Part shown: positions 1 through 5,915 of the stretch, piece after piece
Layout of the letters: each line of letters opens with the position of its first letter
How positions within the stretch are numbered: position 1 is the stretch's first letter
Assembly (NCBI GenBank): GCA_003162935.1
Contig: PLUW01000071.1
Location: 300 to 44,209 of the forward strand
Direction of reading: 5' to 3'
Length of the DNA: 43,910 bases
Source of the DNA: Acidobacteriaceae bacterium
GTDB lineage: Bacteria > Acidobacteriota > Terriglobia > Terriglobales > Acidobacteriaceae
Translations under genes and position numbers: made by a program
Notes under the pieces: model-generated
The model's database searches: none
The model's input: only the letters and a program-made list of their open reading frames with translations
What the model was told of the DNA's origin: nothing

Positions 1-22
1 CGGAAGTATGTACTTTACGCAA
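1..22 (+). repeat. Left terminal inverted repeat of the IS element
   Basis: Exact reverse complement of 2471-2492. Confidence 0.92.
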
Positions 23-1657: not shown

Positions 1658-2455
1658 TTAGCCTTTCGTGAGCCAATCTGGCATTTTCATCGGATGGCCG
1701 TCCCAATACGAGAAAACTGCTTCTTTCAGGCTGGGCGCAGTATCCATGAGTTCTTTAACATTGTCTGGACCGATGTGCATCACGGATTTGTTACCTTCGT
1801 GGATAAGCTTCATGTTCACTTCGCGCCCTACACCGGCGGATGAACTCGCTGCCTCCCTGAAAATGAATGCCGCCAAAAGCATCACTATATCTTTCGGCTG
1901 GCCGTGCTTATACAGGCGATCCGCCAAATAATCCGCTACAACCTTCCCGCTGCCCCATGCGGTATAGAGGGTTTCTGGGACTACAATTGCGCCCTCCGTT
2001 CTGTACAAAATAGGCACCGTGCCCGCCCTAATGGGTGCAAAAACGATGATGAGAAAAATAGGTTCATCTTTGACATATCGTTCATGGATCAGCCTCAAGC
2101 TGGCTTCCAATACCGCTCCATGATCCCCGAAAAAGTCAGCTTTTTCATCGGCCGCCGCATTCTCTAGGGATGTGTGAATTTCTACGAATGCTTTCGTCAG
2201 AATCGCGGTTGGCCCAGCCCCGGCAATGAAAATTTGGTACAGATCAAGTTTGGGAGGTTTGATGGCGACGTTAAAACTGTAAATTTTATCGACAGACCGT
2301 TTCTGCAGCCATCCATCAGTTTCTTCCCGATCAGCGCACAGAAGAATTCCGTTCTCTCTAGCTCTAAATGCTGCCACAAGGGTCATGCGCGGCCTTCCTG
2401 AAAGCCGCTTAGCTTCGGGTCGTGGGATAATGGGACGCGGCTTAGGAGGGATCAT
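1658..2455 (-). CDS. Proteasome beta-subunit-like Ntn hydrolase (IS passenger)
   Basis: MTLVAAFRARENGILLCADREETDGWLQKRSVDKIYSF resembles the proteasome beta/HslV N-terminus. Counting the Thr after Met as 1, Asp falls at 18 and Lys at 33. The start could be 2455 (MIPPKP...) or 2386 (MTLVAAF...). Confidence 0.65.
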   Translation of the reverse strand: MIPPKPRPIIPRPEAKRLSGRPRMTLVAAFRARENGILLCADREETDGWLQKRSVDKIYSFNVAIKPPKLDLYQIFIAGAGPTAILTKAFVEIHTSLENAAADEKADFFGDHGAVLEASLRLIHERYVKDEPIFLIIVFAPIRAGTVPILYRTEGAIVVPETLYTAWGSGKVVADYLADRLYKHGQPKDIVMLLAAFIFREAASSSAGVGREVNMKLIHEGNKSVMHIGPDNVKELMDTAPSLKEAVFSYWDGHPMKMPDWLTKG

Positions 2456-2492: not shown

Positions 2493-2648
2493 ACTACCAT
2501 TATAGTTTGGGTTGTCAAGTGGGGAACTGTTTCCGCGACAGGTCAGCGCAAGGAGACGGAGCTGCTTAACGGGAATTAAGCCTCCCCGGCGTCTGCCCAA
2601 CGTGCCGCAAGGTACGCGGCCAAGCGGCCAAGTGGTACTATTTCCCGC

Positions 2649-4342: not shown

Positions 4343-4379
4343 CTGTATCCAAGTTTGCTCTTCATTGAGCAAATCGGAA

Positions 4380-4490
4380 TTTCATGCAGAGTGGCTGAGG
4401 GACGAGCCCTAGGACGCCACGGCAACCGGAATGAGATCATCTATCTCAATCGCAGGTGCCAACTCTCGCCCGGTAACGGGGACCATGAGA
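4380..4490 (+). ncRNA. SAM-I type riboswitch (S-box)
   Basis: Core AGAGTGGCTGAGGGACGAGCCCTAGGACGCCACGGCAACC; P3 TGAGAT/ATCTCA; GGTGCCAACTC; CCCGGTAACGGGG; P1 TTTCATG (4380-4386) pairs with CATGAGA (4484-4490), one G-U. Confidence 0.9.
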
Positions 4491-4526
4491 TTCGGGTACG
4501 CGAAAATTTGATTCGCACTTCCCGAG

Positions 4527-4554: not shown

Positions 4555-4616
4555 ATTTCTATTCAGTGGGGTATTTTTACCCGGCTCGTCCCGCAGTCAC
4601 AGAAAGAAGCAGCAAG

Positions 4617-5915
4617 ATGGGAACGAGCACGTACGAACTCCGCTGCCGCGAATGCGGCAAAACTTGGGGCAATCAGCCCCGCAGTATCTGCGAAGACTGT
4701 TTCTCGCCGCTCGAAATCACCTACGATTACGATTCGCTTCGACCGCGCATCTCGCGCGAACTGTTTGCCTCGCGTGCTCCGAATATTTGGCGCTATCGCG
4801 AGTTGCTGCCGCTGCCGGCGGGCTTTCAGCCGTCGCTGCCCGTAGGGTTCACCCCGCTGGTTGGCGCGCCGCGACTGGGCGCGAAGATTGGATCGCGACG
4901 GCTGCTGATTAAGAATGACGCCGTCTGCCTGCCCACGTTGAGTTTCAAAGACCGCGTGGTCGCCGTGGCTTTGGCGAATGCTCGCAGCTTCGGCTTCGAT
5001 ACCGTCGCTTGCTCTTCCACGGGCAATCTGGCGAATTCGGTGGCTGCGCAGGCGGCCCGCGAAGGATTGAAAGCCTGGATCTTCATTCCATCCGATCTCG
5101 AGCCGGCGAAGATTCTGGGCACGCAGGTGTTTGGCGCGGAGCTGGTGCGCATCAACGGCAGCTACGACCACGTCAATCGCCTGTGCTCGCAGATCGCCGA
5201 TGAACCTCTTTCCGGCGAACGCGGCTGGGGATTCGTGAACGTGAATCTGCGTCCTTATTATGCTGAGGGATCGAAGACGGTGGGCTATGAAATCGCCGAG
5301 CAACTCGGCTGGCGCTTGCCCGATAACATCGTGGTGCCGATGGCTGGCGGATCGCTCATCACGAAGATCAAGAAGGCGTTTGATGAGCTGATTCTGCTCG
5401 GGCTGGTCGATCCAAAGCCGGTGAAGTTTTTTGGCGCGCAGGCTTCGGGGTGCTCGCCGATTTCGACGGCGATCAAGCAGTACAGCAGCGAGATCGAACC
5501 GCAGCGTCCGAAGACGATTGCACGGTCGCTGGCGATTGGCAATCCGGCCGATGGGCATTACGCTTTGAGGGCCATCACTAAGAGTGGTGGATGGGCGGAA
5601 GACGTTTCCGATCCCGAAGTGGTCAGCGGCATTCAGTTGCTGGCCGAGGCGGAAGGCATCTTCACCGAGACGGCGGGCGGGGTAACGGTGGGCACGGCGC
5701 GCAAGTTGATTCAGCAAGACCGCATTCTGCCGGATGAGACGACGGTGCTCTGCATTACGGGCAACGGACTCAAAACCACCGACGTTCTGGCGGATCAATA
5801 TCAGGCGGAAACACCGATCGCTCCGAAGCTGGCGGAGTTCGAGGCTTATCTGGCGGCGAAAGCGGGGGCGTTGCCGGCAGCGGTTGCGGCGGCTTCGACG
5901 GCGGCGTTTGCTTAG
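4617..5915 (+). CDS. thrC: Threonine synthase-like PLP-dependent enzyme
   Basis: N-terminal zinc-ribbon-like YELRCRECGKTWG...CEDCFSPLEI; LSFKDRVVAVALANA PLP-lysine motif; ACSSTGNLANSVAAQAAREGLKAWIFIP; VPMAGGSLITKI; ETAGGVTVGTARKL. Confidence 0.9.
   Translation: MGTSTYELRCRECGKTWGNQPRSICEDCFSPLEITYDYDSLRPRISRELFASRAPNIWRYRELLPLPAGFQPSLPVGFTPLVGAPRLGAKIGSRRLLIKNDAVCLPTLSFKDRVVAVALANARSFGFDTVACSSTGNLANSVAAQAAREGLKAWIFIPSDLEPAKILGTQVFGAELVRINGSYDHVNRLCSQIADEPLSGERGWGFVNVNLRPYYAEGSKTVGYEIAEQLGWRLPDNIVVPMAGGSLITKIKKAFDELILLGLVDPKPVKFFGAQASGCSPISTAIKQYSSEIEPQRPKTIARSLAIGNPADGHYALRAITKSGGWAEDVSDPEVVSGIQLLAEAEGIFTETAGGVTVGTARKLIQQDRILPDETTVLCITGNGLKTTDVLADQYQAETPIAPKLAEFEAYLAAKAGALPAAVAAASTAAFA

Follow-up and report, generated by a model that had tools for sequence, protein, structure and literature searches.

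A putative proteasome-like threonine hydrolase carried as an exchangeable passenger by IS1595 and IS1 transposons of Acidobacteriota

The locus

The window analysed here is a stretch of 43,910 nt from an Acidobacteriaceae bacterium (assembly GCA_003162935.1, contig PLUW01000071.1, positions 300–44,209 of the forward strand), and it opens with an intact IS1595-family transposon of 2,492 bp, hosted by a soil acidobacterium, that carries the ORF of interest. The features of the element are listed below.

1–22 (+): left terminal inverted repeat (TIR), CGGAAGTATGTACTTTACGCAA, complementary to 2471–2492 at 22/22 positions
209–661 (−): third ORF, 150 aa from ATG 661, with a hydrophobic N-terminus (from the ORF translation)
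658–1614 (−): IS1595-family transposase, zinc ribbon and DDE domains (PF12762, 4.9e-33; PF12760, 4.8e-11; NF033547, 5.1e-52)
1658–2386 (−): short form of the predicted hydrolase (242 aa; Met followed by Thr1, with Asp18 and Lys33), from homologues and triad, model, fold search and profile search against the PDB
2387–2455 (−): in-frame Pro/Arg/Lys-rich leader, MIPPKPRPIIPRPEAKRLSGRPR, from its frame-specific composition and from similar leaders in element-borne homologues
2393–2399 (−): Shine–Dalgarno-like AGGAAGG, 6 nt ahead of ATG 2386 (from the sequence)
2463–2470 (−): Shine–Dalgarno-like GGGAGGAA, ahead of ATG 2455 and abutting the right TIR (from the sequence)
2471–2492 (−): right TIR, a perfect 22 bp match to the left repeat
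2493–2500 (+): target-site duplication ACTACCAT, right copy (from the sequence); the left copy lies outside the window

The transposase, the TIRs and the 8 bp duplication are all those of the IS1595 family. ACTACCAT stands on both sides of the element, the left copy being parted from the TIR by two assembly N that sit exactly at the boundary between window position 1 and the left flank (L072). A search of the genome found only these two copies of the TIR, which indicates that the element is present once; the same TIR type also bounds two homologue loci elsewhere (L201 and L202). Apart from the hydrolase, the transposase and the third ORF the element carries no gene, and an alpha subunit or HslU unfoldase partner is absent from it. 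The third ORF matched no known family, and its slot is taken by variable, unrelated passengers in other, related elements.

Read from 2455 to 1658 on the minus strand, the ORF translates as MIPPKPRPIIPRPEAKRLSGRPR, then Met (ATG 2386–2384), then TLVAAFRARENGILLCADREETDGWLQKRSVDKIYSF. The initial annotation had described it as a transposon passenger with the catalytic layout of a Thr-type N-terminal-nucleophile (Ntn) hydrolase, and translation bears out both its coordinates and its residues: counted from the internal Met at 2386, Thr1, Asp18 and Lys33 are where they were placed, and a start at 2455 sets a leader of 23 residues ahead of that Met. The description as a passenger likewise holds, given the perfect 22 bp inverted repeats and the IS1595-family transposase around the ORF.

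Elsewhere in the window, a SAM riboswitch lies at 4379–4491 (+; RF00162, 68.4 bits), and the ORF downstream of it (4566–5915) looks to be of the threonine-synthase type.

Homologues and catalytic residues

Taken alone, the window protein scores below every family cut-off, its E-value of 0.035 against PF00227 in a single-sequence search falling under the Pfam cut-off, so that a single sequence would not have decided the assignment. Direct searches returned no close relatives, either at E 1e-3 from genome contigs, plasmids or the phylum or from viral contigs, and the hydrolase was unmatched by defence-system models. Relatives were reached solely through a family profile, which was seeded with four relatives recovered through weak PF00227 matches among genomes from this bacterial family, rebuilt from these and their successors, and searched across the phylum Acidobacteriota. 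By this profile search, with the genome of origin counted, the family is present in 8/396 genomes of the phylum and in 67/398 genomes of the same bacterial family; the named records of the homologues belong to Acidobacteriota (Acidobacteriaceae, Terriglobia and Acidobacteriales). PF00227 is matched by 45 of the 59 members aligned, at best with 1.2e-10, and nearly all copies of the family are uninterrupted ORFs.

Within the first 11 aligned homologues, which are 16–26% identical to the window protein, exactly four columns are invariant, namely Thr, Gly, Asp and Lys. The alignment of 59 homologues (~20% identity) has Thr as the nucleophile in 58 and Ser in one, directly after the start codon, together with equivalents of the proteasomal Asp17 and Lys33. 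Asp is present in 59/59 and is residue 17 in 58, position 18 in the window protein being unique in the set and due to a one-residue insertion; Lys, at positions 30–34, is counted in 57, which is a lower bound. One homologue (L155) was counted as lacking Lys, yet by eye it has one at 31, shifted by the alignment; another (L208) has no Lys at the triad position, so at least one homologue is without it. G145 occurs in all 57 ungapped rows. The homologues thus conserve the three positions on which the initial annotation had rested its reading. A similar T...D...K spacing would arise by chance in one sequence in a few per cent of cases (a rough estimate) and is weak evidence alone; it gains significance because the same residues are near-invariant columns in 59 divergent homologues. 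The copy at L162:7683–8582 begins GTG-Ser in place of Thr, Ser being still a possible N-terminal nucleophile.

Predicted fold

For the window protein, AlphaFold gave a model (pLDDT 73.6, pTM 0.75) that was built on 9 sequences and has its C-terminal 15 residues below pLDDT 50. This model shows the alpha-beta-beta-alpha arrangement of the proteasome beta fold, with two sheets and both expected helix pairs (H1–H2 and H3–H4), including helices at residues 60–79 and 89–104. In agreement with the Ntn-type fold proposed from the sequence, the best 50 PDB hits listed by Foldseek were exclusively 20S proteasome and Anbu chains (prob 1.00, E ~1e-9), with TM scores up to 0.77 by target length. The family profile matched 346 PDB sequences at E < 0.01, the best being Anbu (6.7e-17), followed by an archaeal beta subunit and by further beta subunits. 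In the profile alignment the family Thr sits on the mature Thr1, and the mature protein would begin at this residue. Judged by eye in the same alignment, the window protein has no evident counterpart (AASSSAGVGRE) of Asp166, an auxiliary residue of proteasome beta, and GSG stands at the position of Ser129.

Model fold and conserved residues support the reading as a Thr-type Ntn hydrolase, its activity being a prediction. We therefore consider it probable (about 0.8) that the product of the ORF is a proteasome-like N-terminal-nucleophile hydrolase of the beta/Anbu type, and that its gene is a passenger of an IS1595-family transposon.

Start codons and the upstream leader

Two routes to a free Thr1 had been put forward at the outset, initiation at 2386 with removal of Met and initiation at 2455 with the leader as an autoprocessed propeptide, and the homologues favour the former. 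In a scan made without a start-codon requirement, the codon before Thr was ATG, GTG or TTG in 63/63 resolvable homologues, two apparent exceptions being cases in which a Thr two residues upstream of the true Thr had been picked. Within the 59-member set ATG accounts for 40 of these codons, GTG for 18 and TTG for one; each of the 18 Val codons at −1 is GTG, as against 26% of Val codons in the same genes (P = 2e-11). In several leaderless members a stop codon immediately upstream in the same frame forces a start at −1, and a Shine–Dalgarno-like sequence precedes codon −1 in 48/59, including the window copy (AGGAAGG), with L206 and L195 among the copies that lack a recognisable one. Considering that start codons at −1, upstream stops and Shine–Dalgarno sequences all point to initiation there, translation from 2386 with subsequent loss of Met has the better support as the way in which Thr1 would be exposed.

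The frame upstream of Thr has features of its own. It is open for at least 25 codons in 42 of 58 loci (versus 10 and 21 for the other frames), and Pro, Lys and Arg make up 43% of the leader translation, whereas the other frames reach 19% and 23% and the gene body 14%. A leader is open in 40/43 element-borne copies, as against 4/12 others (Fisher P = 5e-5); between homologue pairs, in a codon-position test, the leaders are divergent and gapped. An upstream frame that is open, constrained in composition and typical of transposon-borne copies makes a second, longer product likely, and we suggest that a form starting at 2455, with its own Shine–Dalgarno sequence, is probably made too. An RNA hairpin masking the Shine–Dalgarno sequence of the internal ATG, an idea that came from GGCTTCC...GGAAGC in a few copies, was rejected, the folding of 43 element-borne copies giving a mean z of −0.2.

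Association with transposons across the family

An IS1595- or IS1-type transposase lies within 2 kb at 40 of the 60 homologue loci, 3′ of the hydrolase in 39, and at none of 59 control loci, the flanks of which were shorter (~1.5 kb). The assignment to IS1 is based on PF03400 (5.9e-6, above its cut-off). The hydrolase and transposase genes usually converge, tail to tail (22 IS1595, 12 IS1); five cases have the tandem order seen in the window. Elements of at least three TIR types hold the hydrolase between inverted repeats with 8 bp duplications, the 5′ end of the hydrolase lying just within one repeat in most of them, and three loci devoid of a transposase are still bounded by such repeats. 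One of these, L202:7028–8438, is a non-autonomous element of 1,411 bp with the window TIR type and the 8 bp duplication CAAGAAAA; it contains the hydrolase and a 129-aa ORF and no transposase.

A tree of 56 hydrolases requires several switches between element types, its long branches leaving the details unsure; L153 from an IS1 element, for example, clusters with L161 and L162 from IS1595 elements. Viewed from the side of the transposases, the hydrolase is found at 7/60 loci (4/30 IS1595, 3/30 IS1), and a sister element at L223:808–3067, whose transposase is 77% identical and whose TIR type is that of the window, has a HARE-HTH-like and a Cys-rich gene in the places that the hydrolase and the third ORF take in the window element. 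These two observations rule out the hydrolase as an obligate part of the element; it rides in IS1595 and IS1 elements as a recurrent, exchangeable passenger.

Two copies outside elements have neighbours of another kind. A leaderless, non-transposon homologue (L152:5997–10264) has on one side an SOS mutagenesis cluster of the ImuA/ImuB type and on the other, ~10 bp downstream, an SRAP gene, and at L154 a uracil-DNA glycosylase gene adjoins the hydrolase. A link to DNA damage is possible, two cases being too few to build on.

Comparison with known systems

Anbu (PDB 5nyj, 5nyw), the best profile match and one of the best fold matches, has in common with the window protein the Thr/Asp/Lys set, a Met-Thr start without a propeptide (in the predicted short form) and C-terminal helices beyond the core; unlike Anbu, the window protein, ~17% identical over the model, is transposon-borne. 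Anbu-like homologues from the same bacterial family (e.g. L062, L063, L065, L067–L070) form a separate group with its own sequence pattern. With 20S proteasome beta and HslV (PF00227) the window protein shares the fold and the Thr1-Asp17-Lys33 arrangement, but the identity is very low, and both its scores below the cut-offs and the lack of partner genes (alpha subunit or unfoldase) in the element set it apart from 20S proteasome beta or HslV proper. Moreover, proteasome propeptides have Gly at position −1, where the present family has a start codon.

Fuchs, Alva and Lupas (2021) distinguished 22 proteasome-like families (WPH, PMI-1 to -6, PHI, PPH and others; PMC8665760), and our family, set against them by the text of that paper, resembles them as a group of prokaryotic proteasome relatives that are divergent, retain the triad and have helices added or lost. 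The proteasome-like families PPH and AAH are spread by phages; gene context was uninformative in that survey, the main one of proteasome homologues, and its text mentions neither transposons nor Acidobacteria (PMC8665760).

The window element resembles IS1595 and IS1 elements with passengers in its transposase domains, TIRs, 8 bp duplications and extra genes between the repeats. Passenger genes in IS1595 elements are known, and the family was reportedly defined in a 2009 paper. In the open-access literature we found no published description of a proteasome-like hydrolase as a recurrent passenger swapped between two transposon families, a negative that does not prove that none exists. Both proteasome-like hydrolases and passenger genes belong to known kinds, and what appears to be new, as judged from the literature searched, is their combination and the exchange between transposon families.

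Alternative readings

A main start at 2455 would make the 24 residues before Thr an autocatalytic propeptide, removed on assembly as in proteasome beta. The strong Shine–Dalgarno sequence at 2463–2470, the biased composition of the leader, its prevalence in element-borne copies and the copies without a Shine–Dalgarno sequence at codon −1 (L206, L195) are in keeping with such processing; a propeptide, however, does not require the start codon found at −1 in all resolvable cases, residue −1 is Met, Val or Leu and not the proteasomal Gly, and leaderless homologues occur. Propeptides have, moreover, been reported in proteasome beta and HslV only (Fuchs et al., 2021; PMC8665760). We consider a propeptide unlikely, while granting it real weight. 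A question of another kind concerns the reaction, since connectase, a ligase and a proteasome homologue that is monomeric and shares the nucleophile, is among the relatives of the fold (PMC8665760), so that the fold does not dictate the reaction or imply peptidase activity. A connectase-like ligase or transpeptidase would hand the Thr1 acyl intermediate to an amine and would not act as a peptidase. Connectase, however, lacks H1–H2 and carries two additional helices inserted between S3 and S4 (PMC8665760), whereas the window model has both helix pairs and no such insertion, and its best matches, by profile and among the best 50 Foldseek hits listed, are Anbu and the proteasome; a ligase is accordingly improbable.

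Slightly less probable again is that the element carries, as junk cargo, a homologue devoid of catalytic activity, with a structural role or akin to alpha subunits. Proteasome alpha subunits are inactive, the earliest database hints pointed to them, and passengers of elements often decay; against this, the catalytic residues are the best-conserved columns at ~20% family identity, almost every copy is an uninterrupted ORF, and the start codon at −1 is kept throughout. A coincidental T/D/K spacing in a protein unrelated to Ntn hydrolases would be compatible with a single sequence that scores under all family cut-offs, and is contradicted by the homologues, the profile search and the fold search to a degree that leaves it scarcely credible.

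Proposed function

Returning to the reading as a proteasome-like Ntn hydrolase, we infer from sequence and model that the protein is an active threonine hydrolase, probably a peptidase and probably oligomeric. Translation would begin at ATG 2386 and Met removal would free Thr1, the hydroxyl of which, activated via Lys33 and Asp18, would attack an amide bond. The substrate is most likely a peptide, and the reaction would probably take place inside a homo-oligomer like those of Anbu or HslV. The other product, from 2455, would bear a basic, proline-rich tail ahead of Thr; this long product may have no activity before its tail is taken off, or may serve in targeting or regulation. That unrelated elements have captured the gene repeatedly, and that its catalytic residues are conserved, argues that the hydrolase activity itself may well be under selection.

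More speculatively, and with considerable doubt on our part, IS1 and IS1595 transposons of Acidobacteriota may share an exchangeable, self-assembling Thr hydrolase module with two in-frame starts, one giving a form with free Thr1 and the other a form that its basic, proline-rich tail keeps inactive or directs to DNA or the transposase. Such a module would act on the transposase or on host proteins for the benefit of the element, in the control of transposition or in counter-defence.

Finally, known proteasome homologues either are housekeeping proteins or are carried by phages, and their purpose is mostly obscure. A divergent, catalytically conserved branch that resides on DDE transposons, and that has been picked up repeatedly by two element families, provides a testable genetic context, in which it may be asked whether the hydrolase affects transposition, host fitness or defence. 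In addition, the natural set of N-termini, leaderless outside elements and leader-bearing inside them, offers a way to study how Thr1 may be exposed without a classical propeptide.
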